Assembly: GCF_007904085.1 (NCBI RefSeq)
Contig: NZ_CP042329.1
Coordinates: 1-44,260 of the forward strand
From: Euhalothece natronophila Z-M001
GTDB taxonomy: Bacteria; Cyanobacteriota; Cyanobacteriia; Cyanobacteriales; Rubidibacteraceae
Direction of reading: 5' to 3'
Length of the DNA stretch: 44,260 bases
The notes beneath the pieces were generated by a model. It did no database searches. It was not told where the DNA came from and worked only from the letters and a program-made list of their open reading frames with translations. Positions within the stretch are counted from its first letter, which is position 1. Each line of letters starts with the position of its first letter. Shown here one piece after another: positions 10,919 to 36,246 of the stretch. A program made the position numbers and the translations under genes.

Positions 10919-10933
10919 TATTTACCGCAAGGA

Positions 10934-11179: not shown

Positions 11180-11350
11180 GATGTTTTTCTACCTTTTTAC
11201 CTTCACTTCTCCCATAGGTAGAAAATTCATGTTTTATGCAACCGAATCGAAGAAAAATCTTAGTTCTCGCTACTTACTCTCCTGTAACCCCCTTTAAATG
11301 GTTTTTTTGAGCGATCTGCTAAAATCTATTGGGAGATTTAGTTTAATTTT

Positions 11351-14300
11351 CTAACGATTAATTCTGGTTAAAAATTCCTCAAATAAGGGATCACCAAAAT
11401 TCATGAAACGTAAGGAAGAATCTTCAGCAAACACTTCTGGATAGAAGGTCACTTGATAAGTATTATTAGAGTCTTTGACTTGCCAAGTCTTGTCTCCGCG
11501 GTCTATCCACTCCACTCCCTGTGAAGCGAGAACCTGCGAGGTTGTCATTAATTGTTCAATTCCTTTTGGGGAAATAGGCGAGGTAGGAAGCGGTTTTTGG
11601 ACTTCTGCTAAATCTGCATCTACATCTCTTGTTATTAGATCATCGACATCCATTTCCATCTGGACATTTTTGAAATTTTGCTCAAATTCTGCCATTAAGA
11701 CATCTTCTTCTTGGGGATCTGCACTCATGACCGCTTTTTCAATGAAGGTGGGAACTTCTGCGAGAATCGGTTGAACATGACCGACAACATTCTGAAATAA
11801 ATTAATGCGATCGCGCAGCCGCCGATAAACTTTTGCTTCTACTGTTCCATCATAGTAAAGGTTATGAATCCTAACTGTAGAATATTGTTGTCCAATGCGA
11901 TCCAATCGTCCGATTCGTTGTTCTACTCGCATCGGGTTCCAAGGTAAATCATAATTGATTAAAACCCCACAGGTTTGTAAGTTTAACCCCTCACTGGCTG
12001 ATTCGGTACAAATTAACAGTTTGATTTCTCTATCCCGAAAACTACGTTTAATCTCTTCTTTGGGAACAATCCGCCATTTTTGATCTTCGTAAATTTCCCC
12101 ACCTCGTCCTGAATAACACCCTAATTGTGTTCCATAGAGTTGCTGTAAGGATTCTCGCAAATAGTCCATTGTGTCGGTGTATTGGGTGAAGATAAGAATG
12201 CTTTCGCGGTTTAGAAATTCTTGACTGAGGAGACTGATGAGAAATGATAGTTTGCTGTCTTCTCCTGTATTCTCAAACTGACGCAGTAACTCTTCTAAAT
12301 ACTCGATTTCTTTCGGGTCAACGGGTTCGGCTAAATATGATTCTAATCCAGAGATGACGGCATCATCTACTTCATCTAGTTCCAGTAAATCATCTTCGGT
12401 GACGCTAATTCCCTCTAAACGGCGTTGGAGAGACTGGCGAATGGCATAAAAGGAACTGGTGAGGCGTTTTCGATATAGGGTCATTAAAAATCCTAATGCT
12501 TTCCGTTCCTGCTTTTGTGCGAGGCGATAAAAATCTCGAACATAATCACTGACAGCACGATATAGGGGGATTTCACGACTTGGTTCCAGGTTAATGGCGT
12601 GATCTTGAACTTCTCGCGTGGGAACTTCTTGTTCTAGCATTCCCCGTTGATAATACTCTCGCAGGGTATCTCGGGTGTGGCGAAACATATAGTCTTTGAG
12701 GGGAGTGTTAATTGTTAGATATTGGCGAGAGGTGTTGAGGAAGGGTTTGTTGGTAAGGGTTGATTTATGGTTGGCAATCTTTTTCCCTTTTTCCCATGTA
12801 TCTTGGAGTTGATACGCTAAAACGCGATCTTTCTCTTTTAAATATTGTTGAAAACGCGGACAAGGAGTTCCCCCATAACGAAAATAGTCATAGCACATTT
12901 GTTGCCAAAAATCAAGGAGATTGGCATTGGGTTCATCTCCTAGAGATGCAAAATAATTACAGAAATTATCTCCATATTGCCAATGTCCTTTTAAACCGAA
13001 TAAATGGAGGAGATCAAAGACTTCTATGGGGTCAATTTGCATGGGAGTTGCTGATAATAAAATTAATGATTTCGCTTTCCCTGTCTCCCGTAACTGTTGC
13101 ATTAAAGTTAATAACCGATTGGGATTATCTTTTCTTGCTTGCGGCGTTTTTCGTCTGGCGTGATGGGCTTCATCTAAAATGACTAAATCCCAGGGAGTGG
13201 CTGCTAATAATTCCTCCATCCTTTCTTGACGGCGGATTAAATGACTGGAGGCTAGCACTAAATTTTTACTATCCCAAGGATTGGTAAAAGTTTCGTGATT
13301 TTCGGTTTTGCCATAACAGTCTTGAAACCTACTTTTACTATAATTCCAAAAATGTAAGTTAAATTTTTCTCGTAGTTCTTCTTGCCATTGAGTTTGGACA
13401 CTGGCTGGAGAAAGCACTAAGACTCGTTTGACTTTTTGGGTAATAAGAAGATACCGTAAAATTAATCCTGTTTCAATGGTTTTTCCTAATCCGACTTCAT
13501 CAGCAATGAGAAAACTATGGGGAAATTTGTTAGCGACGTGGCGAAGAATTTTAATTTGATGTAACCAAGGGGTAATAGGAATGGTTTTCAGGCAAAAATC
13601 TAGGCTTCCTTCATGGTTAGGAAGATTAAGTAAAATGTCCCATTGTTGTTTTTCTTCGTTGGTTATTTGTTGTTGGTTGGCGGTTTGAGTGTTAGGTAAA
13701 GGGCGAGTATCAAATTCTATTTTCTGATTCCAAGTGGGTTTGGTATTAGGGGTGTAGCGTAAGATTTTTTGACGCACTGCTTCGGGAACATCAAAAGTTT
13801 GGACATTTGGTGCAAAGTTATTCCAAAGTTGTTCAAAGCGAAATACTTCTTCTGAAACTCTTTCTAAGTCTCTTCCTTCTTCCCATGAACAGTAAACATG
13901 AAAGGATTCAACGTTTTGTTCCCAGCCACTTAGGGATTCATTATTTGATCCTAAAAATACTAACTGATTATTGTCAGCATCGGTAAAGATTCCTACTTTT
14001 TCATGAAAAATTTGTTGTGGATTAATTTGGGTGGGGGAGAACTCAGGAACGCCGTTTTTCTGGAGGGGAATTGCAATTTTAATGTCTAAGTATTCATTCT
14101 GAATTAACCAACTGAGAATTTCAAAATGTTTGAGTTCGACAAAGGTTTCAGGAGAGGTTAATTCTGCATCTAGGCGATTGGTTAAAGCGTCTCGTAATTT
14201 ATAGCCTTGTTTGATGGCTTCTAAGTCTTGTTGGCTAAATTGACAGCCCATAATGAGACGCATTTTTCCATTATTATCTAACATCGCGCCTAATCCTTGA

Positions 14301-14452
14301 GCTACTTTACTAAGGATGCGACTGTTAAAAAATCCTGATTTGCGGTCATATTGAACTGATCTTTCTAAGGCGGGAATGTAAAAGTCAAGGATGGGGTTAT
14401 GTTCGTTACTGGAATAGCCAATGCGCCAATGATAGTCAGGTAAGGTTTGCAT
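11351..14452 (-). CDS. PLD-like nuclease / SNF2-type helicase (defence)
   Basis: A 1033-residue fusion. The N-terminal ~200 residues form a phospholipase-D-like domain with His150-x-Lys152 (FHEK) and GSNNES at 168-173. Two RecA-like helicase lobes follow: motif I ADEVGLGKT (317-325), DEAH (427-430), SAT (467-469), then ESASEGLNLQ and RIGRLDRIGQ of the second lobe. Such helicases with DUF1156 methylases and DUF499 ATPases form Hma-type (helicase-methylase-ATPase) anti-phage systems; its role would be recognition or degradation of unmodified DNA. The start is preceded by (AATAACC)n repeats and no clear Shine-Dalgarno. The 3' part recurs at 43232-44260. Confidence 0.9.
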   Translation of the reverse strand: MQTLPDYHWRIGYSSNEHNPILDFYIPALERSVQYDRKSGFFNSRILSKVAQGLGAMLDNNGKMRLIMGCQFSQQDLEAIKQGYKLRDALTNRLDAELTSPETFVELKHFEILSWLIQNEYLDIKIAIPLQKNGVPEFSPTQINPQQIFHEKVGIFTDADNNQLVFLGSNNESLSGWEQNVESFHVYCSWEEGRDLERVSEEVFRFEQLWNNFAPNVQTFDVPEAVRQKILRYTPNTKPTWNQKIEFDTRPLPNTQTANQQQITNEEKQQWDILLNLPNHEGSLDFCLKTIPITPWLHQIKILRHVANKFPHSFLIADEVGLGKTIETGLILRYLLITQKVKRVLVLSPASVQTQWQEELREKFNLHFWNYSKSRFQDCYGKTENHETFTNPWDSKNLVLASSHLIRRQERMEELLAATPWDLVILDEAHHARRKTPQARKDNPNRLLTLMQQLRETGKAKSLILLSATPMQIDPIEVFDLLHLFGLKGHWQYGDNFCNYFASLGDEPNANLLDFWQQMCYDYFRYGGTPCPRFQQYLKEKDRVLAYQLQDTWEKGKKIANHKSTLTNKPFLNTSRQYLTINTPLKDYMFRHTRDTLREYYQRGMLEQEVPTREVQDHAINLEPSREIPLYRAVSDYVRDFYRLAQKQERKALGFLMTLYRKRLTSSFYAIRQSLQRRLEGISVTEDDLLELDEVDDAVISGLESYLAEPVDPKEIEYLEELLRQFENTGEDSKLSFLISLLSQEFLNRESILIFTQYTDTMDYLRESLQQLYGTQLGCYSGRGGEIYEDQKWRIVPKEEIKRSFRDREIKLLICTESASEGLNLQTCGVLINYDLPWNPMRVEQRIGRLDRIGQQYSTVRIHNLYYDGTVEAKVYRRLRDRINLFQNVVGHVQPILAEVPTFIEKAVMSADPQEEDVLMAEFEQNFKNVQMEMDVDDLITRDVDADLAEVQKPLPTSPISPKGIEQLMTTSQVLASQGVEWIDRGDKTWQVKDSNNTYQVTFYPEVFAEDSSLRFMNFGDPLFEEFLTRINR

Positions 14453-14522: not shown

Positions 14523-15871
14523 TCCCGTTAAATCAGAGATTATAACGGGAGATTCCCATATAGACTCTTATCTAGGCAACCGTAGTTGCCCCCGACAGAC
14601 CGCCGTGACTGGGCTGTTTCACCACGGGCGCACCGACCGCAGTTAATCCTCGCTTTAATACCACTTCTGCTGCTGCTACATCCCTATCTTGTTGATATCC
14701 ACACTCTGGACAAACATGGAGACGTTGGTTTAAGTCCTTTTTCCCAGTATGAACTCCACAATTAGGACAAACTTGAGAAGTGTAATCCTTATCCACTTTG
14801 GCAAAATAGGTATCTGTTTGAGAACAGATATATTCCAAAATAGTTATGAATTGACCTAAGCCCATGTCTAGGGATTGTTTAGAGAACATTCCCTTACTCC
14901 AAGCTGTAAAGTTGATGTCTTCAACGAAGAGCATTCCAGTATCAGCGCAGAGTTGATGAGCAAGTTTGAAGTGGTAATCTTTGCGTTGATTAGCTACTTT
15001 TTCATGTAACTTAGCAATCCTCTTTTGTAACTTGAGATACTTTTCAGACCCTTTCTTCTTGTTGCGTAGTTTTCTTTGCAGTAATCCAATCTTGCGCAGA
15101 ACGCGATCAAGAAACTGTGGTCTTTTTATGGTTAAACCATCAGAGGTAGCTAGCATACTTTTAATTCCAATATCTATTCCCACTGCATGACCGTGAGGTG
15201 GTGGTGTTGGGACATCAACATCTAATTCCAAGGCTAAGTTAACGTAGTAGCCAGACGCTTTCTTAATGACTTGGACTTGTTTAATTTGAAATCCTTTTGG
15301 AATTTCCCGTGATTTAATGAACCTTACTTGTTTAAGTAAGGGCATTTTAATCTGATTACCTTCGACTTTAATCTTGTTACTAACGAGATTAAAAGACTTC
15401 ATCTTCTTCTTAAACCGAGGAAAGCCACAGCCTTTAGACTTCATGTCGTTAAAGGCTCGGTCAAGTTTCCTCAAAGTTTGTTGCATAGCCTGAGCATTCC
15501 CAGACTTAAGAAAGGGATAAGTTTTTTTAGCTTTGGTTAGGTTAGAGGATTGAATGTGGTAATTGGGGTATTCAAAAGGAGGAACAATATATTCCGAGGT
15601 GATCGAGCATGAATTAATCGGACAACTACGAGAGTTATACCAGAGCTTTCTTTCAGCCAAGGCATAATTCCAAACCGAACGACAAACATTGAGATTGTGT
15701 TCAATCTTTTCAATTTGTTCTTTCGTTGGTTTAATTTTGTAGTTGTACGTTAAATTCAACATCGACCAGATTTCTCAACATTAATCTGAGTTTAGCACCT
15801 ATCTTACATAATGGGTAAACTTATTGTAACTGTCCTGATTCATCTACCCGTTAACCTAACGGTATAACGGG
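14523..15871 (-). mobile_element. Solo-TnpB IS200/IS605-type element
   Basis: An intact tnpB is flanked by subterminal hairpins of the same sequence. Past the 3' end are TCCCGTTA (14523-14530) and TAACGGGA (14543-14550); past the 5' end are CCCGTTA (15847-15853) and TAACGGG (15865-15871). No Y1 transposase (tnpA) is present, so mobility would need TnpA in trans. The exact cleavage ends cannot be fixed by eye. It sits between the helicase gene and vapC. Confidence 0.7.
14572..15762 (-). CDS. tnpB: TnpB RNA-guided nuclease
   Basis: A 396-residue TnpB with an apparently complete catalytic set: RuvC-I Asp197 (VGIDIG), RuvC-II Glu281 (FVEDIN), a zinc ribbon with Cys332/335/351/354 and RuvC-III Asp361 (QDRDVAAA). 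TnpB proteins cut DNA guided by an omega/reRNA transcribed from the element's 3' end, favouring element retention. The tail LTAVGAPVVKQPSHGGLSG overlaps where that RNA would start, so a guide would derive from the flank just beyond 14523. No tnpA partner is present. It lies within the defence/toxin-antitoxin cluster on the same strand. Confidence 0.93.
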   Translation of the reverse strand: MLNLTYNYKIKPTKEQIEKIEHNLNVCRSVWNYALAERKLWYNSRSCPINSCSITSEYIVPPFEYPNYHIQSSNLTKAKKTYPFLKSGNAQAMQQTLRKLDRAFNDMKSKGCGFPRFKKKMKSFNLVSNKIKVEGNQIKMPLLKQVRFIKSREIPKGFQIKQVQVIKKASGYYVNLALELDVDVPTPPPHGHAVGIDIGIKSMLATSDGLTIKRPQFLDRVLRKIGLLQRKLRNKKKGSEKYLKLQKRIAKLHEKVANQRKDYHFKLAHQLCADTGMLFVEDINFTAWSKGMFSKQSLDMGLGQFITILEYICSQTDTYFAKVDKDYTSQVCPNCGVHTGKKDLNQRLHVCPECGYQQDRDVAAAEVVLKRGLTAVGAPVVKQPSHGGLSGATTVA

Positions 15872-17164: not shown

Positions 17165-19927
17165 TTACAATTCTAAGTTCATCTGTCCATCGTCTAAGTT
17201 CATTTCCATTTGTTCATAAACCACCTTAGATTTAATTTCATCCATTGCTAACCATAAGTCTAATAAGGCTTGATGTTCGGGAACATTTTTGGGAATCACC
17301 TTAAATGCTACTTCCATGGTTTTACTAAACATATCATTACTAACTAACCCTGTATCCTGCATAAACCGCCGCACCATTTGGATGTTTTCTTCTTCTTGAT
17401 AAATAGCAATCATCCCATGAAGTCCATTCACTAAATGTTGGGCGGAAAATTCTTGGGGGTTGATGGAAAAGGCGCGTTTCTTTAGCCGTTGGAGAGGGGT
17501 TAAGAGTTTACAGCTTCCACTGGCGGAGTCGAGGAGTTTATGGACTTTTGCTAAGTCACCAACGTTAAAACCGCCTATGGCTAGGGCTAACTGTCGCGCT
17601 TCATCAAAGGGGAACTCTCGCGCTTTGAACGCATCCCAAGCGAGGAGATACCATTGTGTTAAGGTGTCAAACCCTGCGGTGTCGCTTTGGACGAGTTTTT
17701 GGAAGCGGTAGTTGGCGATGGCGGTTCTCGCTTCGGCGAAGGCTTTTTCGGGACGGACTTCTTCTCCTGTACTGTCGAGGATGGGGTAGGAACGGGAAAA
17801 GACGTTGAGGGCGGGGCCAAATGCGCTAAGATAAAGGTCGATTCCTGTGATGTCGTTGGCTTCAAAGTCAGGGGCGCGAGATTCTACAAGATTGGCGACT
17901 TCGGGGCGCAAATCATCCCACCAGGCTTGTTCGGCGTTGGGGTCACGTTTACGACAGACTAATAAAACGGTGCTGGAAACGCTATTTTTTTTGGCTTGGT
18001 GAAGGTTTTGGGGGTTTTCGGTACTTACAGCCCAAGATGCTGTAATCTCGAAGCCTGAATCAATTAATGATTTGGTTAGAACATCCCACGCGCCAGACTC
18101 TTTATGATTAAACTGAACGGTCATTACGCCATCATCCCGTAAGACGCGATAATGTTCGGCGAATGCCATTTGCATTTTCCCTTCGTAGTCTTGGCTGGCG
18201 AGTGCGTCGGGAGATTCTCCCATGTTACGGAAACGGGAGGGGTTAGCAACGGCTTCTCTGTCTTTGTCGGTGAGTTCGGTGAGGAAAAGTTCGGGGAAAA
18301 TGTCGTCTAAAACTCTTTTTTGCCAGACGTAGAAGAAGTCGGAAAGTTCTGCATATTGAATGGTAGCGTAATAAGGAGGGTCAGTGACGATGGTATCAAC
18401 GGAGTTATCAGGAAGATGGAATAAGCTATCAGCAGATGTAGCGTCGATTTGGATTGATTTAGAGTCGTATTTTTCTAGTTCTTTAAACTGAATAGAGTTA
18501 TTTTCTGTTCCTAGATATTGGCAGAGTTTACTATAATCAGAAACGAAAGCATCAGCACACCAATGCCATAATTCTCCATTTCCACTAATTTCTGGATAAT
18601 TCCAAAATAAGTTAAGTGAATGTTGTCCTGATGCTGCTTGAGAAAATGCTCTTGATGCTTGCCAATGAGATAATCTAGAGTTTTTATCAACACATCGATC
18701 TAAAACTAAGGCTAAATAAGTTATAATCGCGATCGCTGTTTCAGGTTCATATTCAGCTTGAATTTTTGCTTTTGCTTCATTGATAATTTCTACATAAGCG
18801 ACAAGCGTTAAAAGTTGACGAGGGTTAAAATAATCAGAGTTTCTAGTTAATCCATAAGCAAAACATCGATCAGCATAACCATCATATCTATCTTCATTAG
18901 GTATGATTTGATTCCAAAACGTATCTTCTAATTTTTCTGCTAAATACTGTTCAGCTTTTTCAATTCCTTCAAAATCAATTTGACTGGGAACTCGAAACTG
19001 TAAACTACTCTTTCCTTCCTTATAAGCAACTGCATAAAGTTGATGACCTAAACCTTCTTTTTGCGCTTGAGATTTAACTGCTTCTTCTTCGATTACATTG
19101 CTACAATTCGGACATTTCCCAACACTACGGCTAACGGTATCGTAATTTTTTGGATCAAATTCTCCCTCTTCTGTTTGTATGGTTGTTCCCTTTCCTTTCT
19201 TCCCCTTAATCAACTCAAAATCAACCCGTTTTTCTTCAGGGTTAGGAATGGGTTTAACCGCACACCATTTATGTAAATTTTGCTTTTCTGGACGCTTGTA
19301 TAACCACCAGTTGGGAGATAAAGGAACAACCGATTCACAACTGGGACAAACTACGGTATGCGCCCATAAATAATTCTGTACCGTTTCCCCTTCCTGCGAT
19401 GGGAAAAACTCAGCGAGGCGTTTCTCTGCTTCATCCCCTACCCATTTCACCCATTTATCAATGTCTTCCTGTAACTCTGCGCCAAATTTCAGGGGATATT
19501 CCATCGCTGCTTTCATCGTTACTACCGCCACTGGGTTTAAGTCATAAGCTAAGACATTCAACCCATAGCGCACGGCTTCAAAAGGGATACTTCCCCCACC
19601 CGCAAACGCATCTAAGACAGTTGGCGTTTTCGTTCCCCATACCGTCTCACAATAGTTTTGCACTTTCTCAATGAGATGAGGGGGGGGAGGTGTTTTGTAG
19701 AGGCGAATATCTTTCCCGTTTTGTAAGCCCAATAATTGTTCAAATTCTTCTGGAGTAATGTCGGCGGGTAAAATTGAGGCTAAAACGGAGGCGCGAGAGA
19801 AGGATAATGGTTTACGAGAATACCAGCGATGCAAGCCCTTAAACGGGTTTCCCCCACTTTCATAACTCACCTGTTCATTGAGGAGGTTAACAGGCATTAT
19901 TTTCTCGATGAAGACTTGGGGGCGCAT
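17165..19927 (-). CDS. DUF1156 DNA methyltransferase (defence)
   Basis: A 920-residue adenine-type DNA methylase. The DUF1156 N-terminus contains HRWYSRKPLSFSRA (about 33-46). The SAM-binding motif DAFAGGGSIPFE is at 106-117 with DLNP at 129-132; the catalytic DPPY is at 516-519. Two CxxC pairs (CPSC near 194-197 and CPNC near 273) suggest a zinc-binding insert. In Hma-like systems this enzyme marks host DNA so that helicase and ATPase act only on unmodified invaders. The leader is (AATAACG/C)n followed by AATAACAAAACC before ATG, almost the same as before the helicase. Specificity cannot be read from sequence. Confidence 0.92.
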   Translation of the reverse strand: MRPQVFIEKIMPVNLLNEQVSYESGGNPFKGLHRWYSRKPLSFSRASVLASILPADITPEEFEQLLGLQNGKDIRLYKTPPPPHLIEKVQNYCETVWGTKTPTVLDAFAGGGSIPFEAVRYGLNVLAYDLNPVAVVTMKAAMEYPLKFGAELQEDIDKWVKWVGDEAEKRLAEFFPSQEGETVQNYLWAHTVVCPSCESVVPLSPNWWLYKRPEKQNLHKWCAVKPIPNPEEKRVDFELIKGKKGKGTTIQTEEGEFDPKNYDTVSRSVGKCPNCSNVIEEEAVKSQAQKEGLGHQLYAVAYKEGKSSLQFRVPSQIDFEGIEKAEQYLAEKLEDTFWNQIIPNEDRYDGYADRCFAYGLTRNSDYFNPRQLLTLVAYVEIINEAKAKIQAEYEPETAIAIITYLALVLDRCVDKNSRLSHWQASRAFSQAASGQHSLNLFWNYPEISGNGELWHWCADAFVSDYSKLCQYLGTENNSIQFKELEKYDSKSIQIDATSADSLFHLPDNSVDTIVTDPPYYATIQYAELSDFFYVWQKRVLDDIFPELFLTELTDKDREAVANPSRFRNMGESPDALASQDYEGKMQMAFAEHYRVLRDDGVMTVQFNHKESGAWDVLTKSLIDSGFEITASWAVSTENPQNLHQAKKNSVSSTVLLVCRKRDPNAEQAWWDDLRPEVANLVESRAPDFEANDITGIDLYLSAFGPALNVFSRSYPILDSTGEEVRPEKAFAEARTAIANYRFQKLVQSDTAGFDTLTQWYLLAWDAFKAREFPFDEARQLALAIGGFNVGDLAKVHKLLDSASGSCKLLTPLQRLKKRAFSINPQEFSAQHLVNGLHGMIAIYQEEENIQMVRRFMQDTGLVSNDMFSKTMEVAFKVIPKNVPEHQALLDLWLAMDEIKSKVVYEQMEMNLDDGQMNLEL

Positions 19928-20229: not shown

Positions 20230-20658
20230 CTAATCTCCTAATAAAATTCGCATCGCTTTCAGTGCTGAATTTCGATTCCCATTATTAATATTGGCAAACC
20301 AATAGTGGGTTTCTTCATTACTCATTTCCTTAACTTTTGCTGTAATATTAATAATTCTTTCTTCTTTTCTAAGCGGTTGCAGGGCTTGAAAAAGAATGGC
20401 TAAATTAACCCCTGTTTCTTCATCTAAAATATAGGGATTCCGTCTTTTATAAGAAAGGGTTTTCGGATCATAATTATTGGCTTTGAGGGCTTGGTAAATA
20501 TTGTGTCGTGCTAAAACTAAGTTTCTTCCTTTGAGTTGTCCAATTCGTTTAGCTGTGGGACGCTTTTTCTCTCCTGCTTTTTTATAGGCACATTGATAGA
20601 GTTCAAGGCTAAATTCGTTATTATTAAGAGGCTTGACTCGTAGTTGAAATTCTTGCAT
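20230..20658 (-). CDS. DUF7680-like small protein
   Basis: A 142-residue protein of a family I tentatively match to DUF7680: a strand-rich start (QLRVKPLNNNEFSLELYQ), a central EETGVNLAILFQALQPLRKEERI (about 82-104), then MSNEETHYWFANINNGNRNSA and a final LKAMRILLGD. Small proteins of this kind are, to my memory, found beside DUF1156 methylases and DUF499 ATPases. It is upstream of the methylase on the same strand, separated by about 170 bp and an antitoxin remnant, so it may be an accessory component of the defence system. Biochemical role unknown. Confidence 0.65.
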   Translation of the reverse strand: MQEFQLRVKPLNNNEFSLELYQCAYKKAGEKKRPTAKRIGQLKGRNLVLARHNIYQALKANNYDPKTLSYKRRNPYILDEETGVNLAILFQALQPLRKEERIINITAKVKEMSNEETHYWFANINNGNRNSALKAMRILLGD

Positions 20659-21639: not shown

Positions 21640-21863
21640 CTAGCTATATCCTTTGCTATATAGGGAATATAGATATTATTTTTATTAATTGATTTTATTT
21701 TTATCTTAAATTTATACGAATAGCTTGATTAAATCATAATATAAATCAGTTTGGTAGCAGTAGGGAGTAAAAAGGGGAGTTGACGTGAATCCTCCATATT
21801 TTGGAGTTTTTTGCAGTTTGCTTAGGATTTTTCTCAAATTTTGGTGTGTGATTTTAATCATTT

Positions 21864-22046
21864 ATGGTAATTCCTTAATGACAATGGTAGATGAAGATAG
21901 ATCAGGGTAGATCAGGGAGTATCATGGTAGATAAGGAATCGCCAATCTTATTGAGTCGTTCAAATACCATTGATAAAAGAAGGTTATTTTTGGTCATATC
22001 ATGGTGAATAATGGTAACTTATGGTATTAAAAGGAAAATAATGGTA
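21864..22046 (+). repeat. Phased ATGGTA array (iteron/centromere-like)
   Basis: ATGGTA or one-base variants occur at 21864, 21884, 21904 (AGGGTA) and 21924, exactly 20 bp apart; the middle units share ATC-A-T/G-GGTAGAT. They recur at 22001 (ATGGTG), 22011, 22021 and 22041, spaced 10 or 20 bp. One inverted copy is at 21965. Helical phasing implies cooperative protein binding on one face of the DNA. The array ends about 65 bp before an RHH-like protein gene. Confidence 0.75.
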
Positions 22047-22114
22047 TCGCTTGTTTGTCGTAAATCACATAATTATAAGATTTTTGTTATAAAAAAGAAA
22101 GGATGGAATCACTT

Positions 22115-22639
22115 ATGAGTAATACCACAATATATATTAACTATAAATCACAAGCAAAAGTAAATAGTAAGCGAGGAAAGTTGTTTAAGTACCTTAATCA
22201 AATAGAATCTGGGGAAAGAAATGCAATGATTTGCCATGCGATCGAAAAGTATTATTATCCTGAACTTATATCAGAATTTGAAGATATTTCAGAGCAAGAA
22301 TTAAAAGTGATGGCAAGGCGTTCTATAAGTGACTTATGGGGTCAAATACATAGTTTGGCAATTCTAGCAGGGTTGGATGTGGAAGAGATGCTAGGGAGAA
22401 GGGTGAACTCGGTTGGAGAAGCAAAAGCCCCATCAACTGTAGAATTGAGCCAAGAGTCAAGTGAAGAGTCAAGTGAAGAGTCAAGTAAGGAAGGGGAAAA
22501 GGAGAAAAAAAGAGAAAAAACAAAAATAGAGTTAATTATGGAAGCGAGAAAGAAAGATACAGAAAGCAATTTTCCGATAGATGATGATAGAAAGCCAGAT
22601 GGGGAAGAGGCATTAAATAGTATGATAGAATCTTTTTAG
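22115..22639 (+). CDS. RHH-like DNA-binding protein with acidic repeat tail
   Basis: A 174-residue protein from ATG 22115 (AAGGA about 10 bp upstream); an in-frame ATG at 22103 has its purine tract with no spacing and is less likely. The N-terminal ~60 residues (TIYINYKSQAKVNSKRG, then GERNAMICHAIEKYYYPELI) look like a ribbon-helix-helix or ParR-like fold. The C-terminal half is charged and probably disordered, with three SSEE/SSKE repeats encoded by 12-bp units. Its position next to phased ATGGTA repeats resembles parR/parC or omega-type partition loci, although no ParM-like gene is seen. The family assignment is tentative. Confidence 0.65.
   Translation: MSNTTIYINYKSQAKVNSKRGKLFKYLNQIESGERNAMICHAIEKYYYPELISEFEDISEQELKVMARRSISDLWGQIHSLAILAGLDVEEMLGRRVNSVGEAKAPSTVELSQESSEESSEESSKEGEKEKKREKTKIELIMEARKKDTESNFPIDDDRKPDGEEALNSMIESF
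22454..22489 (+). repeat. 12-bp in-frame tandem repeat
   Basis: Three units of GAGTCAAGTGAA (the last one varied) encode repeated ESSE. Likely length-variable. Confidence 0.8.
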
Positions 22640-22824: not shown

Positions 22825-23154
22825 CTAGGCGTTTCTGTCTGTTAGAATCAAAATGATCGCCTCTTTATGCTCTAAATTATCTAATGAAAAGACTTTGGTA
22901 TAAATCTTTTCATCTGGGAAACTCGAAAACTTACTTTTGATTTTCTTTGGTGTTTCTTTTGAATTATTTTTGAGGTAATAAGTATCAGGCTTAGAGCCTT
23001 TTCCTTGTTCGCGATCTACTTGGTTTTCTTCGAGTAGTTCCATCAATCCATTGTAGGTAGCAGATTCGGAATACTCAATTGCCTTAGCAATTTCTTGGCG
23101 TGTACCGGTCGGGTTATGTTTTAAATAATTCAATATTTTTTCTTTTTTATTCAT
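22825..23154 (-). CDS. Winged-helix DNA-binding protein
   Basis: A 109-residue protein with an N-terminal winged helix: KKEKILNYLKHNPTGTRQEI (helix 1 to turn), AKAIEYSESATYNGLMELLE (recognition helix), then the wing ENQVDREQGKGSKPDTYYL up to residue 61. The C-terminal part, with the strand EAIILILTD, is unassigned. It has a strong AGGAGGAAAA ribosome site. It lies downstream of rep on the same strand, past a long inverted repeat, so it may control replication; that is inference. Confidence 0.75.
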   Translation of the reverse strand: MNKKEKILNYLKHNPTGTRQEIAKAIEYSESATYNGLMELLEENQVDREQGKGSKPDTYYLKNNSKETPKKIKSKFSSFPDEKIYTKVFSLDNLEHKEAIILILTDRNA

Positions 23155-23253
23155 ATATTTTTCCTCCTATTAATTTATTATTTTTCATGAGGTTATTCGG
23201 TCTTTACAGAAATTGAATGCTGTTGAGATTTTAATGACTAAAAATGTCTGTTG

Positions 23254-23321
23254 TTTAGCTCAGAAAATCTTAATTTCTTCTCAATCATTTTGAGTTTTTA
23301 TATCATATTTTCCGAGCTAAA
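23254..23321. repeat. Long inverted repeat between rep operon and winged-helix gene
   Basis: TTTAGCTCaGAAAAT and ATTTTCcGAGCTAAA are 15-base arms (14 pairing) around a 38-base loop that holds a CTCAA/TTGAG hairpin. It may be a structured RNA, a terminator or a single-strand initiation site. The rest of 23155-23515 is AT-rich with nothing else recognised. Confidence 0.55.
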
Positions 23322-23515
23322 TTTAACGATTTTTTATTTATTTTTTTAAGACAGAATCAAGTCATTAATGGTCACCGATTCTTTTTAAACCCCTTAATTC
23401 AATTATTTTTTATTTATTTTTAATCTGTAATTGCAAGCTAATTCCTAATACCATCTTGAACAAGATAGGAGAATCATTCAAGCTAATTTCTCATCGGTGG
23501 ATGCACTTGACCTGA

Positions 23516-23681
23516 TCATTTTTTGATGATTCCAACATCCACTAAGCTATCTAAGATTAATCCAGCAAACTTATCTAAATCGCCACGACAATGTTCATAA
23601 GTTAAAAGCGCAAGGTCGCTATAGTACAAGGCGTTTGGAGAAGGCTTCGCGTTTACTAGAGTCACTTTGATTGATTCCCAT
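23516..23681 (-). pseudogene. Small ORF downstream of rep, one frameshift
   Basis: From ATG 23681 the frame reads MGINQSDSSKREAFSKRLVL and stops at TAG; the neighbouring frame continues YYSDLALLTYEHCRGDLDKF, then AGLILDSLVDVGIIKK to a stop at 23516. The 166-nt length is one base over a multiple of three, so a single extra base near 23623 would explain the break. The join may be a sequencing error (this region is single-copy) or real. Joined, it would be a ~54-residue conserved-looking protein 27 bp after rep. Family unknown. Confidence 0.5.
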
Positions 23682-23708
23682 ATATTATTAATAATCTCGC
23701 GTGACCCC

Positions 23709-26700
23709 TTAAGCTACCTCCTCATAGGATTCTATTAATTCATTAATTAAACTGCTCGCCAATTCATTCGTGACATGGGGATGAATTGCTCTTAAATCAT
23801 CTACCGATTCTTGCACGTCATCTTTAGCTAACAGGTTAAAGAGAGTCCTATCCTTGTTGCCGTAGAATGGGATAGAATCATCATTGATATAATTAATTAA
23901 TGATGTAAGGCGTTTAGGGAAGTTAACCACATTCCGAGACTTAAGGTCGTCATTAACCTTCTGTAGCCAGTGGGAGAAGATAACATCTTGCTTATTGGTT
24001 ATCCGTTCGACTGTGTAAACTCGTTCTCGTCCCTCATTTTTCCCTTTCTGGTAAGAGAAGGCTAACTCATACCCAACGCGGTTAAGTATCTTCCCTAGAT
24101 TCCTGATTGGTGTTTCCTTATCGGATATCGTTAAATTCAGGAACTGCTTAACGGTGGTCTTGGCATTTTTGTTTTCACAAATGTCTTGAATATGTTGCCA
24201 CCACCAATCAATCGAGCTATTAGTTACCTCCTCTCCTTCCATCGCTAGAATTTCAGGGATTCTTAGAGCTTCTAGCACTTGCACTTTAGCTTGGTTCTGA
24301 GTGCGGTTAAAATCGGGTGAGTAGCCTTTGCCTCCTGTCGTATCAGCGTATTTTTTCGCTTTTTGGTGGTCAGCTTCCTCTACCTGATCGCGTCCTACTG
24401 TAAGCCAAAATAGGAGGGATAACTGAGGATAAAGCCCGTCGTCGTCTTGTTCAACTAATTCCTTGTCAGCTTCCACACCATAGCGCTTTTCCATTTTCCC
24501 TTTTCTTAATTGGTAGCGTTGGGAATCGGTTAACTCATGTTTGGATTCCAGCTTGGTAAGTTCCTCATCGGAAGGGGTTTCAATTTGCGCGATCGCGCTG
24601 GTTTCCTTGTCGTAGTTGATGTCTCTTGTGGTGGTAACTGTTTTCCCTAGAGGTTTCTTATCATCTTCCTCGATATCCTGCATTTGGATAATTTCATATC
24701 CTTCCCTTTTCAACCCCTCTAGGACAATTTCACGATACGCTGACAAGCCTAAATTATGGTTGGCAACATAGCTACAGTAAGCATTAACATGGTTTCCAAA
24801 GGAATCAAACTCTAAAGCCTCATTGTCTAGCTTGGTCAGGTTGCAAATGTTCCGTTTGGTAACTGATTTATTAGAGCGTTTGACGGCTCGGGGTTCGGTT
24901 TCGCCGCCACTCATAAAGCCAACGCCAATGGGCTTAAAGTAACAGTGGCGAGGGATATCATCTCTTAATCGTGCCAAGAATTGACGGGTGCTGTTTTCTG
25001 ATTGCGTTCCCTGATTGAAACTGTAAACGGCGGTGAAATGATTTTCAACGTCAATGCTTATGCCAGTTCCTAGCACGGGGGTGTAAATTACCACATCATA
25101 ATCTTTAATTGCCTGATTGATCAGGTTGGCAATCCCAAAAGCCTCATGTTCGGGATTAGCAACGGTTTCCGAGTCAATTCGTAAAACCTTCAGATGGGGA
25201 TATCTTGTCTTGATGTAGGTTTCTACTGTCTGGCTTCCCCACTTGGAACTTGCTCTTTGGGCATCTATGGGAATTAGCACTTTAGAATCTGGATCATCTA
25301 ATTCTAAAAGAAGGTCATGTAATAGAGCTTCTGGGGAGGGGTAATTATAAAGTTTTCTCCCTTTAGCTGGTTGAAAGTCGTTAACAATTACTTTCTGTTG
25401 ACAGTGACCAGTGAGGGAAGAGATATAATTGAGACCGCGATCGCTGAGGTCAGCATCGGATAAAATAATCTGTTTGGCATTCTGGCAAAGGGTAGAAAGG
25501 TTGGCTAATACTTCCGTGCGGTGGTTAGCTACATCCGTCCCTGTGCTGGTGAGGGTGTGGGGAATCATTTGTTCTACCTCATCAATGATGAGGACAAAAT
25601 CATCCCAGTTATGAGGATTGAAGTTAACCTGACTATTGCTGTGGAGGGAATCAGAACATAACGCTAACCCTAAAACTCCCCTGGTATCAGATACACGGAA
25701 GTTATAAGCGTTATCAATGCCAAACCGTTCCGATAAGGCTTCTACTAATTGGCGGCGGTGGGATAAGAGGAGAACAGGGATTCCAGCGTTGATATACTCT
25801 TGGACATAATCGCCAATTGCTTCTGTTTTGCCAGTGCCTTTGGGTGATTTAATTCCAAGGATTTTGGCAATACTATCAATATCATCCTTGGTTAGGAATT
25901 GTTTGTTTAGTCGCTGGTCAACATGGTTTAATTTTTGATTCCAGTAAAGCCACGCTGATAATGATAGCCGTTGTTCATAAACCTTCTTAAACCAATTAGC
26001 ACCATTAAGCGCGATCGCGTCGTCAATGCCTTTTCCATCTTCGGGTTTCCAATAAAGGATGCTAACCTTGCCACCATTTTTGCTTAGAACCTTCCCTAAT
26101 ACCTCTTGGGCGAGTTCAACATTGCGACGGGTGCTGGCTTTCTCATCCTCATCAAAGGCAAGGAAAAATTCTCTTTTAACCTTGCACAGGGGTGTTAAGT
26201 GTCGGGTTAGTTCCTTACGGCGTTTCTCTTCTCCCTTAAAGTTAATAAACTTCTCAGCATCCTGATCGATCCAATTCCAGATCCCAGGAACGGCGACGCA
26301 AGGATATCCTTGGGTTAGAATGGACGCTGCTTTTTTGTATCCTTCTGTTACTCCTACAGAAACAGGATGAGTCTTAACTGATTCCCAGAAGCCCTCATCT
26401 AGTCTGATTAGAACGTTCAGGAGAGTTTTAGAGTCTTCACATTTTAGGTACTCAAAACCATCTTTCTTATTTCGTAGTTTCTGGGAAGTCTGATAAACAT
26501 CCTCAATTGCTCCATTCTTACAATTTTCTCTAGTGATGGCTAATAGGCTATTGCTATCCTTAATTTCTTCCTTGTCTATTTCATCCTGTAGCCGTTTGAG
26601 AAAATCTTTCTGAAACTCATCATTCTTGCTCTTTGCGACAATTTTGGCACTATCAGCAAAGGACACAAGAGGGGCAAAAATTTCTGTGGCTCTCCCTCTG

Positions 26701-27038
26701 GGATGCTCGTATTTGATATGCTTCTGCTTCTGGCTATCCCAGCGTGGGTTTTCTGGTTTCAGGGTAATGAAGTCAGAATAACCTCCATTCTGTAAATCAG
26801 CACCCCGAGCACGCCAGCCACCATCATTAAGAAAATCATATTTCTTTAACTCGGAACGGCTAATCCGACCCGTGTTATCACGTTTGATGTTGTCTAGGTC
26901 AGCTAATAGCTCGATCGCCTCGTCCCGTGCGCCGTAGGGTTCAACCTTGAGGCTTCTTAAATTAAGCTCGATGATTTCATCTGAAATCCTGCTTCCTTTC
27001 CATTCATTCCGATGGTGAGGGTAGATAAAATTAGCCAT
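23709..27038 (-). CDS. CyRepA1-like primase-helicase replication protein
   Basis: The plasmid initiator, 1109 residues from ATG 27038. That ATG is chosen over an upstream in-frame GTG at 27047 because GGGAGGT lies 7 bp before it. The N-terminal half is a DUF3854/TOPRIM-like primase module with Glu232 (GVTEGYKKA), the acidic FLAFDED near 292-298 and GKGIDD near 335-340. The C-terminal half is a superfamily helicase with Walker A PKGTGKT (399-405) and Walker B LIIDE (483-487). This layout matches cyanobacterial CyRepA1 proteins such as that of Synechocystis plasmid pSYSA. A 57-codon leader ORF overlaps its start by 8 bp, suggesting coupled translation and copy control. Confidence 0.88.
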   Translation of the reverse strand: MANFIYPHHRNEWKGSRISDEIIELNLRSLKVEPYGARDEAIELLADLDNIKRDNTGRISRSELKKYDFLNDGGWRARGADLQNGGYSDFITLKPENPRWDSQKQKHIKYEHPRGRATEIFAPLVSFADSAKIVAKSKNDEFQKDFLKRLQDEIDKEEIKDSNSLLAITRENCKNGAIEDVYQTSQKLRNKKDGFEYLKCEDSKTLLNVLIRLDEGFWESVKTHPVSVGVTEGYKKAASILTQGYPCVAVPGIWNWIDQDAEKFINFKGEEKRRKELTRHLTPLCKVKREFFLAFDEDEKASTRRNVELAQEVLGKVLSKNGGKVSILYWKPEDGKGIDDAIALNGANWFKKVYEQRLSLSAWLYWNQKLNHVDQRLNKQFLTKDDIDSIAKILGIKSPKGTGKTEAIGDYVQEYINAGIPVLLLSHRRQLVEALSERFGIDNAYNFRVSDTRGVLGLALCSDSLHSNSQVNFNPHNWDDFVLIIDEVEQMIPHTLTSTGTDVANHRTEVLANLSTLCQNAKQIILSDADLSDRGLNYISSLTGHCQQKVIVNDFQPAKGRKLYNYPSPEALLHDLLLELDDPDSKVLIPIDAQRASSKWGSQTVETYIKTRYPHLKVLRIDSETVANPEHEAFGIANLINQAIKDYDVVIYTPVLGTGISIDVENHFTAVYSFNQGTQSENSTRQFLARLRDDIPRHCYFKPIGVGFMSGGETEPRAVKRSNKSVTKRNICNLTKLDNEALEFDSFGNHVNAYCSYVANHNLGLSAYREIVLEGLKREGYEIIQMQDIEEDDKKPLGKTVTTTRDINYDKETSAIAQIETPSDEELTKLESKHELTDSQRYQLRKGKMEKRYGVEADKELVEQDDDGLYPQLSLLFWLTVGRDQVEEADHQKAKKYADTTGGKGYSPDFNRTQNQAKVQVLEALRIPEILAMEGEEVTNSSIDWWWQHIQDICENKNAKTTVKQFLNLTISDKETPIRNLGKILNRVGYELAFSYQKGKNEGRERVYTVERITNKQDVIFSHWLQKVNDDLKSRNVVNFPKRLTSLINYINDDSIPFYGNKDRTLFNLLAKDDVQESVDDLRAIHPHVTNELASSLINELIESYEEVA

Positions 27039-27204
27039 TTGCCTCACCTCCCATCATTTGCGATTGGATGAGAGGGAAAGAATTATGGCAGGTTAGACCA
27101 AAATTCTGATTCCATGCTGGAATGGAGCTAAAATTGCTTCTGGTTTCCTTGGCTTGATGTTTGTTAACCGATACGTTATGATTGGTGTAGAGTAAAAGGT
27201 GCAT
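27031..27204 (-). CDS. Leader ORF translationally coupled to rep
   Basis: A 57-residue frame, MHLLLYTNHNVSVNKHQAKE...SQMMGGEANG, with AAGGA about 9 bp before its ATG. Its TAA stop (27031-27033) overlaps the rep start ATG (27036-27038), and the rep ribosome site lies inside its last codons. No family is recognised. Such short ORFs control Rep translation in other plasmids (tap/repB-type coupling). It could alternatively be fortuitous, but the start, spacing and exact overlap favour a working leader. Confidence 0.6.
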   Translation of the reverse strand: MHLLLYTNHNVSVNKHQAKETRSNFSSIPAWNQNFGLTCHNSFPLIQSQMMGGEANG

Positions 27205-29220: not shown

Positions 29221-32200
29221 TCAATATTCGACATTAACTCCCAAATCTAATCGTTCAACTGGGTTACGAGTTAAATTCTGTTCAATGGTATGAAAATCAT
29301 TTCCTTTCGGGATAATCCCTTGTTCAAATTCTAGAATGACTTTTAAGTTAACATCGGCAGTGGCGTTAGGTTGATTAAGTAAGGTGTTGATATTGTTAAC
29401 AAAGCCTTGAAAGCCTTTATACTCTCCTTGATATTCTAAACGGAGAAATTGTCCCCCAGCTTGAATCGTAACAGTTTGCTCAATTTCGGGATTGAATCGA
29501 CTTAGCAAGCCAATTCCTGTTACTAATTTTCGATAGTCCATGAGTTGGGAAACAGATAATTCAAATCGTTTAATCAATTGAATCTTCTCATCATCAGCGC
29601 GATCGCGCAATTGATTAAATACAGCTTTTGGTGTTCCTTGAAACTCTAGAAAAGTCGGCTTTTGAACATCAAAAATCGTCTGATTTGTCCCAACAGTTGG
29701 GGAAGAAGAAGTCGTTTTAGTGCTATAAAGCGTCACCGTTTCTTCTTTTTCTAAAGTTTCCCCTTCTCCATAGTCAGCAACCACCCGAAAGCGAGTAGTT
29801 TCTTGGACTTCTGCTTCGTATTCATCAGAAGGGCGAAAATCATCACGAATTAATTGTTCACCTTGATATAAACTAACTCTTAAAGCTCCCTTAGCCTTCC
29901 AACGCACCCGTACTGGTTTTTGCGGTGTCGAAGCAGGCATTAATTGTAAATTTAAATCAATTTCTTTGGGCTGTGGCGGTTCTAAAATTCCCCGACGATA
30001 TAAGACCATGCGCTCAGAAAATTCAATATTCTCTGGAGGAGAAATGGCAGCATTATTAGTTTTAATATAAACCTTTTCTCCCACTTTTAAATCCCATTGT
30101 CCTTCCATAATTCCCCGTCTTATGGTAGTTCGGAGTTTTGGAACTTCTGCTTCTATCAGCAAATTCAGGGCAATATTTTTAGCAAATTGTTCTTTTAGAT
30201 TTTTGGTACTCCAATGCTCTATCCCTTTTGGCCAAACTTTTTGTAAAATATAAGCAGGAGCGAAAGGTTTGGCATCATTTTCTAATTCAGCACGGATTTT
30301 TCCACAGTCTCGGAGTGCTTTTAAGATCACTTCTTGCTGATTACTTTTTCCCTTAACGGTACTAGAATCATTTGCAGGTAAAGTGTAGTGCATTAACCCT
30401 TGAGGGGCTTTCACCTCATCTTTTGTCGGATAAAATAAATGACGATAAGTATTAGTTAAAGCAATCCGAACATCTAAATCTAATTTCCCATTCTTTTCCT
30501 TTAATTGCTTTTTTTGATTTTCCGAGATATCCTCTAAACGATTAGGACTATTAAGAATATTTTGGATAGCAATATGTTCTCGATTGAGATTAATGGCTTG
30601 TTCTAATTGTTGTTTATTAGCCACTAAAAATAGGAGACGATTTCGATAAGTCCGAAAACTTCCCGATTCTCCTGTTTTATTAAAGATATTTTCCACAAGG
30701 AGAGGGGGGCTATCTTGGGAAGAAGTAATGCTTTCTTCGTCAAAGTCGATGATACAAAGGGCGATGGGAGTTGCGACATCATCAACATCGGCAGGGGAAT
30801 CTGGAGAGGAGATAAGTTGAAACTGTTTAGAAGCGAAAATGCTATCACGGCGGGATCGTAAATTCTCTTTAGCTTCAACTTTTCCCACTTGTTCTTTCTC
30901 TTCTGTAATAATTTTATTAATAGAGGGTTCTTCTTTAAATCGCGCAATCGTGGTAACAGGATCCACTTCTAAATACCAAGCGACTGAGGCTAAACGGGTC
31001 AAGGCTTCATCAACAAAACTAATTTCCACATGAGGAGTCAGCAGAGATAAATTGAGTTCTGCACGCCGTATTCCTGAAGAAATGCCTTGAGTGAGAGAAT
31101 GGAGAAAAATTGATCGCGCTACCCAAGTCGTAAAAGGAGGTTTATCTGCAATGCGCCACTGTTCATCTTGAATTTGGGCATAGGCTTGTCTTCCACTAGG
31201 GTTATAAATATCAGCTTGTACAGGATTCCGCATTAATGGACGTTGCAAGCGCGAGGTTAATTCATTGGTCACTTTCGGATTCAACCCAACGGGGAGATGA
31301 TGGGTATGGATGAGAGGAACCCATTGTGCAGTATCCTGCCATAAGTGTTGGACAACGAGAGCAAATAAACGCAGTGCGCCCCTAGTGCGTTGAAATTCAG
31401 GGATAGAGGCAATTTTTTGTGTTAGCAGTCGGAATAGTTCAGGATGGAAGGGATAACTATTTTCAATCGCTTCTGCGTAACTGGCTTCTTTACAGCCATC
31501 AGGAAGATCAATCCGTGCGCCACGATAACAATTCAGATAGGCTTTGGCTGCTTCTTGGGCTGCCTCAGTAGAGACAGTTTCAAAAACCCGCTGTTTGACA
31601 ATATTATAAATTTCAATATCCGTAGAAGGGCTTAAGACTCTCTCTTGTCTAGCAGAAGCACGAACGAGTTCATTCAGTTCACTGGTTTCTTCGCTGAAGG
31701 TATCGGAAGCAGATGCAAGGGAATAGACAAAGATTACTTGATTTGAGGCAGCCGCTAAGTCCATGAGTGAGAAAAGAAAGGAAACCACTTGACGGGCGAG
31801 GTCACTATTGCCCACAGTACGGGCTTTTGCTGACCGTAAGTAACGAGCAATTTCATCAAGGATAATCACGGTGGGGTGGTTATCAACGAGGCGTTCAATA
31901 ACGGAAGTTCCTGGACTGATGCCACTTTCATCGGATCCTTTGAGGAGATCATAACCGCGAACCCCTCCAATTTGATAGGCAATTTCTCCCCAAAGCGTAT
32001 AAGTGGTGATTCCTGTGTCTTTGTGATAAATGCCATTAATAGGGTCTAAATCTCGTCCATCAATCGCTGCCACTTGGGTCGCATAATCAGGGATGATTTT
32101 CAGATGATCGGTGAAGCGGTCTAATTCAGGAATGTTCCGCCCTTGCTGACAAATGTGCCAAAGCGCGATCGCGTCGTGAGTTTTTCCCCCACCGAAGCTA

Positions 32201-32445: not shown

Positions 32446-32526
32446 TATTTTTTCTAGAGAGCGGCTTATTCCCTCTAGTTTAAGGAATTTTGCTCCTGAG
32501 TTCCTTGGTCTATTTATCTATTGAGT

Positions 32527-32588
32527 TAATTATACAATTAGCTCAATGTATCTTTGTATAATTATGTCAATATACCTTTACTTCCTGA
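32527..32588. repeat. 61-bp AT-rich dyad repeat A
   Basis: About 95% identical to 34940-35001 upstream of parA. Arms AATTATACAA and TTGTATAATT surround 16 bases. It lies between the divergent DUF499 gene and psbA. Together with the parA-like scrap that follows, it looks like a duplicated piece of the partition locus. Confidence 0.85.
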
Positions 32589-32589
32589 G

Positions 32590-32637
32590 TTAAAGGAACT
32601 GTCGCGATCGCCGATTGGATTTTTTTCTTATTCCCTG
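32590..32637 (+). pseudogene. parA fragment
   Basis: TTAAAGGAACTGTCGCGATC and the following CGCCGATTGGATTT match the parA interior at 35236-35268 at nearly every base, and CTTATTCCCTG resembles a stretch about 35 bp further into parA. Only about 50 bp remain. Copy 1 equivalent: 695-742. Confidence 0.55.
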
Positions 32638-32905
32638 TGTTCAAAATAAGCCTAAAAAAAGGTAATTCCTTGCCAGCTGTACTGTTCCACAAGGTTGAGG
32701 AACTATCTTTTTGGTGGTAATAAGTACCAGTAAATTGTTAACTTAGCAACAGAAGCTAAACGTGACAAAATGTAACATAAAATTAAATGATCTCATCAAT
32801 GTCTAATCTGATATTTGAAGTCGTAATGCACTAATTTGTTTGAGGATTATGGCAATTAGTCTTACTCTATTTTGGAGTTTTCAGATTAAAAGATTAGAGA
32901 TTGCC

Positions 32906-32934
32906 TTTACAAAATGACATTTTCCATTTATACT
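32906..32934 (+). promoter_or_regulatory. psbA promoter
   Basis: TTTACA (32906-32911), 17 bp spacing, TATACT (32929-32934). Transcription would begin near 32941, giving a ~100-nt leader with two hairpins (GGCAA/TTGCC at 32946-32960 and the T-tailed one at 32963-33001). Confidence 0.75.
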
Positions 32935-32962
32935 TAGTAAATTAAGGCAAGTGAATTGCCTC

Positions 32963-33001: not shown

Positions 33002-33042
33002 AGCGTTCAATGACTGTTTAGCGTTCAAGGACTGATCGGACT

Positions 33043-35048: not shown

Positions 35049-35831
35049 ATGCTAACCATTGCTTGTCTTAGTTTATCGGGGGGACAGGGGAAAACTACCA
35101 CCGCCGTGCTTTTAGCTAAATCCTTAGCCCAGAAAGGATACACAGTGTTAGCCGTTGATGCCGATCCCCAAAGCAATCTCTCCACCTTCCTAGAAAGTGA
35201 TGTGGGAGAGGAGATGCCAACACTACTAGAAGTATTTAAGGGAACCGTCGCGATCGCCGATGGAATTTATGCCACAGGAATAGATCACTTATTCCTCATT
35301 CCCTCTGATGATGCCCTAGATACCGTTCAAGATTATCTCAGTAGTAGTGGCGTAGGGGCGATGCTACTGGGGAAACGGTTAGAAGCAATGAAAACAGTGT
35401 TTGACATTTGTTTAATTGATAGTCCTCCCCAGCGCAGTCAAATTTGTAAATCCATCATTGGCGCAGCCCACCAAATTCTAATTCCCTGTGAAGCCACAGT
35501 AAAAGGCTATGGTTCTCTAGTTCGCACCCTTGATGCCATCAAAGAATTAACAGAAATTGGAGTATCGCAAGCACAACTCTTAGGTGTCATTCCCTTTCGC
35601 GATCGCTGGGTTGGGAATAATCAGACTCATGAAAGTCGAATGTGTATCCAAGAAATGATCACAGAAGTCGGGAAAGAGTTAGTTTTTCCTTCTATACGGG
35701 AATCAGAGCGTTATAAACAAGCCATTAGCCAAGGGAAAACCTTATCAGCTTTAGGCGCTCCCGAATTGGAATCCCCCTTTGAAACTCTAGTCCAACATCT
35801 TACAGCCATAATAGAAGATAACCATGAATAA
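35049..35831 (+). CDS. parA: ParA partition ATPase
   Basis: A 260-residue ParA/MinD-type ATPase that positions plasmid copies over the nucleoid. Deviant Walker A SGGQGKTTTA (about residues 8-17), DADPQSN (about 38-44) and the Walker B-like DICLIDSPP are visible. It lacks an N-terminal HTH, as in type Ib ParA. The stop overlaps the start of the RHH partner gene by 8 bp. A dyad-bearing repeat lies upstream. This is the intact copy. Confidence 0.95.
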   Translation: MLTIACLSLSGGQGKTTTAVLLAKSLAQKGYTVLAVDADPQSNLSTFLESDVGEEMPTLLEVFKGTVAIADGIYATGIDHLFLIPSDDALDTVQDYLSSSGVGAMLLGKRLEAMKTVFDICLIDSPPQRSQICKSIIGAAHQILIPCEATVKGYGSLVRTLDAIKELTEIGVSQAQLLGVIPFRDRWVGNNQTHESRMCIQEMITEVGKELVFPSIRESERYKQAISQGKTLSALGAPELESPFETLVQHLTAIIEDNHE

Positions 35832-36240: not shown

Positions 36241-36246
36241 GCGGTT

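Follow-up and report, generated by a model that had tools for sequence, protein, structure and literature searches.

A phased repeat array and a parR-like gene without parM on a plasmid of Euhalothece natronophila Z-M001: a candidate motorless partition module

In Euhalothece natronophila Z-M001, a plasmid carries a 10-bp-phased repeat array upstream of a parR-like gene, and we are somewhat inclined to regard this pair as a motorless type II partition module (parC-parR, with parM missing) that helps to keep the plasmid. The window, i.e., the whole stretch of DNA that was analysed, is contig NZ_CP042329.1 (C4; 44,260 bases), one of the five contigs of a 3.52-Mb genome. Its ends overlap, with positions 31891-44260 repeating positions 1-12380 at 99.4% (5 mismatches and 66 gaps), and the replicon is therefore probably a circle of ~31.9 kb. 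The ends of contigs C3, C2 and C5 overlap like those of C4, and these contigs are probably circles of ~31.6, 67.5 and 14.7 kb, respectively; C1 is the chromosome. The first 12 kb of C4 hold indel-damaged gene copies, the intact versions of which are found at the other contig end.

The array (21860-22046) falls into two blocks on the + strand, both recognised by direct reading and by a lag test. The first parC-like sub-array (21860..21939) is composed of the 10-bp units ATTTATGGTA, GACAATGGTA, GATGAAGATA, GATCAGGGTA, GATCAGGGAG and TATCATGGTA together with degenerate ones, and the second (21997..22046) of TATCATGGTG, AATAATGGTA, ACTTATGGTA, TTAAAAGGAA and again AATAATGGTA; the unit in both blocks is approximately gATcATGGTA. 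The spacer between them (21940..21996) carries one minus-strand ATGGTA at 21965-21970. On the + strand, ATGGTA is found at 21864, 21884, 21924, 22011, 22021 and 22041 and ATGGTG at 22001. A preliminary description of this DNA had counted eight phased hexamers of the ATGGTA type; the spacings that it gave hold, but only seven copies are clear, the eighth being a degenerate AGGGTA at 21904, and further degenerate in-phase units appear between the clear copies when the DNA is read in steps of ten. Its proposal that the copies lie on one face of the DNA is right only approximately, since a 10-bp spacing drifts against the 10.5 bp of B-DNA and the two sub-arrays are separated by 77 bp (from 21924 to 22001), and the distance of 65 bp that it gave between array and gene has to be replaced by 68 bp to the ATG at 22115 or 56 bp to an alternative ATG at 22103. 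Directly after the second sub-array, a candidate parR promoter (TTGTTT-17 nt-TATAAG, 22051..22079, + strand) was picked by eye; it is a weak match, was not among the sites of a consensus promoter scan, and promoter-like sites were no commoner in that scan than in shuffles.

The 10-bp-phased array at 21860-22046 was confirmed as real. The lag test was motif-free and compared 7-mers with at most one mismatch, at lags of 7-45, with dinucleotide shuffles. In 21753-22102, lag 20 gave 23 pairs, a count reached by 0 of 2000 shuffles, and lags 10, 20, 30 and 40 summed to 71 against a shuffle maximum of 19; the top-scoring windows among the 879 sliding windows of C4 were those over the 21860-22046 stretch. 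These tests, as well as the recurrence on C2 of an array with another sequence, make it extremely unlikely that the array arose by chance or serves regulation by an unrelated transcription factor. It is the phasing, not the hexamer, that constitutes the signal, since ATGGTA alone is not rare in C4: there are 30 copies on both strands, some of them doubled by the contig-end overlap, against a shuffle mean of 18, and 4 of 100 shuffles were as high. Genome-wide, the only pairs of ATGGTA 4-14 bases apart on C3 and C4 are those of the array (and of its overlap copy on C3), and five more places lie on the chromosome, a count without a usable control because ATGGTA reversed is again ATGGTA and gives no expectation. 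A DNA search of PLSDB plasmids with the array region gave no match.

The gene that follows (22115..22639, + strand) encodes 174 aa (178 aa from 22103), which profile, alignments and models divide into an N-terminal core, an acidic low-confidence linker and a C-tail. The protein is ParR-like, i.e., homologous to proteins encoded next to ParM, and the main evidence is an HMM of 22 proteins whose genes directly follow that of ParM in other cyanobacteria, none of them from this genome; 6 of the 28 downstream ORFs considered for this set were dropped by eye (L017, L028, L031, L034 and L035 as other proteins or unsure, and L043 as a duplicate). Among 1163 stop-to-stop ORFs from C2-C5 and a 35-kb stretch of C1, this external HMM matched the C4 ORF at E 8e-15, the C3 and C2 copies each at 5e-15 and the C1 copy at 1e-13; after these ranked a piece of the C3 copy from the overlapping contig ends (2e-6) and an ORF of C5 next to its ParA gene (0.006). 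These own-genome relatives match the window protein at 95% (C3), 68% (C2) and 79% (chromosome C1), and the last residues, MIESF, are identical in all four copies. A second ParR on C3 (1822-2353) was rejected as a product of the contig-end overlap, in which positions 1-13963 are found again at 31570-45552 with 1 mismatch and 60 gaps.

Searches with general model collections gave little. The window protein had no Pfam match at E 1, no PHROGs match at 0.01 and one chance-level NCBIfam match (E 0.095). Pfam matches of 36 family members were scattered, the best being the helicase PWI model (1.4e-4, in 11 members), which was taken as chance, and no partition or RHH model matched the 36 family members in Pfam or the window protein in NCBIfam. 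Moreover, no match to the window protein was found in a PLSDB protein search, no relatives were found in 8 other genomes of the family (including 5 of the genus), and none in a contig search of genomes with the window protein alone as the query. On the structural models, the RHH label that the preliminary description had attached to the protein is unproven. The core model (pLDDT 84) has helices at residues 19-28, 32-55, 60-85 and 89-97 with no strand assigned in 1-18, and the full-length model has a pLDDT of 66. ParR is described as a strand and then helices (PMC5016525, available in part); the order in the core model, an unstructured N-terminal stretch and four helices, fits this order, with the strand unassigned and no solved RHH match. 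Structure searches with both models gave weak, mostly helical matches, with no ParR or RHH chain among the matches listed, and a single-chain model is incapable of showing the shared ribbon of an RHH protein. A profile search of PDB sequences found nothing relevant.

By comparison, loci of other cyanobacteria place such arrays in a partition context. Among 113 external ParM loci, a ParR-like gene was found after ParM in 65 and before it in 10, and in 38 none was recognised on the same strand within 600 bases. The upstream DNA of 4 of the 75 ParM-ParR pairs was too short for the lag test, which left 71 external regions; when the four regions from the Z-M001 genome were included, 26 of 75 upstream regions, 23 of them external, beat all 60 of their own shuffles, and 48 of the 71 external regions had no significant array, a limit to the comparison. 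The 23 significant external arrays had their best lag most often at 10 (ten arrays), followed by 22 (five) and by 11 and 21 (two each), with single arrays at 7, 12, 33 and 44. Of the 71 upstream windows, 17 scored at least 16, compared with 26 of 1883 control windows taken elsewhere in these loci. In 21 of the 71 loci, the upstream window had the top score (2.9 expected), and this held in 11 of the 20 ParM clusters at 60% identity, where the cluster count allows for the near-duplicates that the locus counts include due to overlap between collections. Example arrays from these loci are of the two-block type, as in L070, in which five CCAAATGGAG-like units are followed by inverted ones. A ParMRC system is expected to have a tandem-repeat centromere upstream of the par genes and ParM encoded with parR. 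The former was found here, as it was, with significance, at 23 of 71 external loci; ParM was found with parR on none of C4, C3, C2 and C5, and the locus is for this reason not filed as a complete ParMRC system.

When the window protein and 25 relatives were used as a profile, 29 of 339 cyanobacterial genomes (own included) gave matches, at 53 places. Loci were at hand for 30 of the 53 matches, and three were set aside (the C3 copy of this genome and two without a clear ParR ORF); ParM was found in 25 of the remaining 27 loci and was absent from two. Seven longer stretches, five of them at matches for which no locus was at hand and two at loci read before, were picked because ParM had not been seen near the match: four showed ParR-like genes without ParM (L179-L182, two of them already counted), two showed ParM, and L183 was on a 3-kb contig. 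In sum, 27 of 32 external matches were read with ParM, four without it in the stretch read, and one, on the 3-kb contig, was unjudgeable. The four matches without ParM are spread over three other genomes. Judging from these loci, a motorless parR recurs in cyanobacteria but is the exception.

Within Z-M001, C2 and C3 carry a parR-like gene and an array without parM, as C4 does, and the arrays before parR are significant on all three plasmids. The ATGGTA array is absent upstream of the C2 parR, where the DNA does not align with that of C4; yet of the 1344 windows of C2, those immediately upstream of parR give the strongest 10-bp signal, and the unit there is close to gATaTTAGTA where C4 has gATcATGGTA. 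The C4 and C2 ParR proteins are identical at 32 of 52 positions in residues 1-52, 6 of 21 in 53-73, 30 of 32 in 74-105 and 28 of 38 in the tail. A centromere and a binding domain that change together would give such a picture; the difference is wider than the presumed DNA-binding part, with residues 53-73 differing most. In the block 74-105, silent changes are few too, so that gene exchange, not selection, may explain the identity of this block. Over the whole gene, pN (0.16) is below pS (0.27) between C4 and C2, and parR therefore seems to be under some constraint; within the C-tail (137-174), pN and pS are nearly the same, and the codons of the tail, when tested, gave no clear sign of selection towards ParM binding. 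C3 and C4, which occur in one strain, have identical arrays, identical ParR residues 1-52 and Rep proteins that are 98.7% identical. Incompatibility between the two would be expected, and their occurrence in one strain with identical arrays and near-identical Rep counter-indicates a centromere that sets compatibility.

The preliminary description had left a choice between a second partition locus and an origin locus. HMM homology and the phased arrays upstream of related operons give good support to the former, of the parC-parR type, and no support was found for the latter; the Rep gene is separate and has its 3' end towards the array. This gene (23709..27047, minus strand) encodes a plasmid replication protein with DUF3854 and a helicase-type domain, recognised by Pfam and PHROGs matches (phrog_4913 'replication'), and represents replicon context outside the par module; the protein presumably resembles CyRepA proteins. 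Replication iterons, i.e., an array that is part of the origin and is bound by Rep, would fit the position of the array in the same conserved ~6-kb block as rep on C3 and C4 and the fact that C2 differs in both the array and the large gene at the rep position. This explanation is nevertheless very improbable, since the array stands ~1.7 kb beyond the rep 3' end, directly upstream of parR, and such arrays precede parM-parR in other cyanobacteria. No Rep domain was found in the large gene of C2 that differs from its C4 counterpart, and because of this difference the C4-C2 comparison alone does not separate ParR from Rep as the binder.

Between rep and parR lies a small winged-HTH-like gene (22825..23154, minus strand, 109 aa), convergent with parR and found within the genome on C2, C3 and C4 only. 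It is kept at 88-90% on C2 and C3 and has weak matches in only 3 of 290 other genomes. The ~6-kb block common to C4 (20971-27075) and C3 (29138-35037) at 96-97% comprises Rep, this small HTH gene, parR and the array, and little else is shared between the two plasmids. A modest lag-11 signal, 14 pairs by raw count, was seen in 23155-23709 between rep and the small HTH gene.

That no motor gene lies near the array, as previously described, holds more widely: ParM profile and alignment searches found ParM on none of the four plasmid contigs (C2, C3, C4 and C5), and the single ParM that they detected in the genome is on C1. The ParA locus elsewhere on C4 was likewise borne out, as a ParA-type ATPase gene (35049..35831, + strand) followed by its own 138-aa neighbour gene (35824-36240). 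Type Ib systems have ParA and a ParG/omega-like RHH protein in one operon, and with the nearest intact ParA, that at 35049, 12.4 kb from the array and parR, the locus is not of this type by the ParA criterion. ParA-type matches at E 0.001 were found on C4, C2, C5 and C1 and not on C3, and tubulin-type matches on C1 only. On C3 (~31.6 kb), no partition-like genes other than the array-parR pair were thus recognised.

On C1, a parR copy is followed by an actin-like ParM gene (C1:1594474-1595595), which has matches in 100 PLSDB records, many of them from cyanobacterial plasmids with the annotation ParM/StbA family, and also in 24 of 291 genomes (own included). It has a PHROGs partition-protein match (3.5e-11) and a weak PDB match to a ParM (E 0.0086). 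The C1 parR-parM pair lies 1.2 kb from a replication gene with DUF3854 and D5_N, with a GIY-YIG gene between them, and owing to this nearby plasmid-type replication gene it probably represents an integrated plasmid. DNA with an Hsp20-type gene, shared at ~94%, is found on C4 (5449-5988/37353-37892), on C3 (27130-27669) and in the chromosomal parR-parM remnant region (L057 7961-8548).

This chromosomal gene raises the possibility, unlikely but to be taken seriously, of a motor in trans, in which the C1 ParM would polymerise and move C2, C3 and C4 through the C-tails of their ParR proteins as one shared motor. Searches of the genome gave no other ParM, and of the 26 positions that do not vary among 12 other ParM-type proteins the C1 ParM retains 22, with the start residue among the four that differ; the C3 tail is nearly identical to the tail of the C1 parR copy (95% over residues 137-174), the MIESF end is common to all four copies, and a role of chromosomal ParM in plasmid segregation is left possible by the available part of PMC12270681. 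Against a shared motor, the C1 parM frame as assembled lacks a start codon (ATG, GTG or TTG) ahead of its first nucleotide-binding motif, the parR beside it is disrupted close to the start, and neither a clear array upstream of this parR nor any other cognate array stands out at the C1 pair. That three plasmids keep only a centromere and an adaptor, with two array sequences, and ride on one ParM from an integrated plasmid in the chromosome is a doubtful idea. Motor-free stabilisation appears somewhat likelier than a borrowed motor, because the sole ParM found sits in a chromosomal plasmid remnant and both genes there, as assembled, lack ordinary starts.

A ParMRC leftover that is an autorepressor only, regulating its own gene while the plasmids persist through their copy number or through ParA (on C2 and C4), is rather improbable. 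ParM is gone, C4 and C2 have ParA genes, the C-tail is without clear purifying selection and ParM is retained beside most related parR genes (27 of the 32 external matches read), all of which speak for such a leftover. Against it, C3 keeps the pair with no ParA (E 0.001), ParM or tubulin-type match, each of the three plasmids has a significant array before parR, and parR-like genes that lack ParM in the stretch read are found four times in three other genomes (L179-L182).

If array and parR form a motorless partition module, ParR dimers would, by analogy with published ParRs, bind successive 10-bp units of both blocks. The published proteins bind repeats as dimers, wrap DNA and repress their promoter (PMC5016525; PMC9426499; both available in part). 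The ParR-bound DNA may be wrapped into a segrosome-like complex, ParR may repress its own promoter in or beside the array, and the complex would help to keep the plasmid although ParM is not encoded on it. Stabilisation of this kind could be motor-free; StbA of R388 has been proposed to act in such a way, by pairing plasmids or attaching them. In R388, StbA on the stbDRs gives stability and the putative motor StbB is not required, according to the available part of PMC3098194.

Among known systems, the locus is like Type II ParMRC (R1, pB171, pSK41 and C. perfringens pCW3) in having a ParR-like protein, by profile to ParM-linked cyanobacterial proteins, and tandem repeats upstream of the gene. 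The units of C4 are 10 bp, the repeats being 10 bp in pB171 and 11 bp in R1 (PMC9426499, as far as available), and the C4 array is split as is the R1 centromere (PMC5016525, likewise in part). It is unlike these systems in that three plasmids (C2, C3 and C4) have no parM in cis, two plasmids of one strain (C3 and C4) have the same array, and no sequence or fold match of the window protein to solved ParRs was found. With StbA of R388 it shares two blocks of short phased repeats upstream of the protein's own gene and a single, here predicted, DNA-binding protein, but the stbDRs consist of 9-bp repeats with 2-bp spacing, in two sets of five (PMC3098194, in the part available), and the window protein is related to ParM-linked proteins, so that the likeness to StbA is one of layout and behaviour only. 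Chromosomal ParM-type actin genes beside parR-type genes, as on C1, are described in the available parts of PMC12270681 (Dh-cParM, Cb-cParM) and PMC12645912 (FcmB/FcmC of filamentous cyanobacteria). Unlike these, the C1 pair has parR ahead of parM and resembles the remnant of a plasmid, and on the plasmids only the parR-parC part is present; fcmB-fcmC moreover has the opposite gene order and a role in cell shape (PMC12645912).

If the pair works, it would represent a natural small case of an actin-type partition system without its motor, on three plasmids at once. Stabilisation by ParR-parC alone would then become testable, as would the service of plasmids in trans by a chromosomal ParM, which the available part of PMC12270681 leaves open. 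Literature searches for ParR without ParM, in which subscription journals were thinly covered, found nothing on point. Should the shared-motor explanation be true, the motorless parR genes of other cyanobacterial genomes would point to a recurrent lifestyle. The profile and the array units provide handles on this ParR-like family.

Further genes of C4 lie around the module. A psbA-type gene (33043-34125, 360 aa, Photo_RC E 1.5e-94), which like the relatives found in the searches points to a cyanobacterial host, is followed at 0.9 kb by parA. Genes of the PLD-helicase, DUF1156 methylase, DUF7680 and DUF499 types (11351-14452, 17165-19927, 20230-20658 and 29221-32445) look like parts of one restriction-like defence cluster, and between them are found an IS605-type orfB (14572-15762) and the rep-par block.
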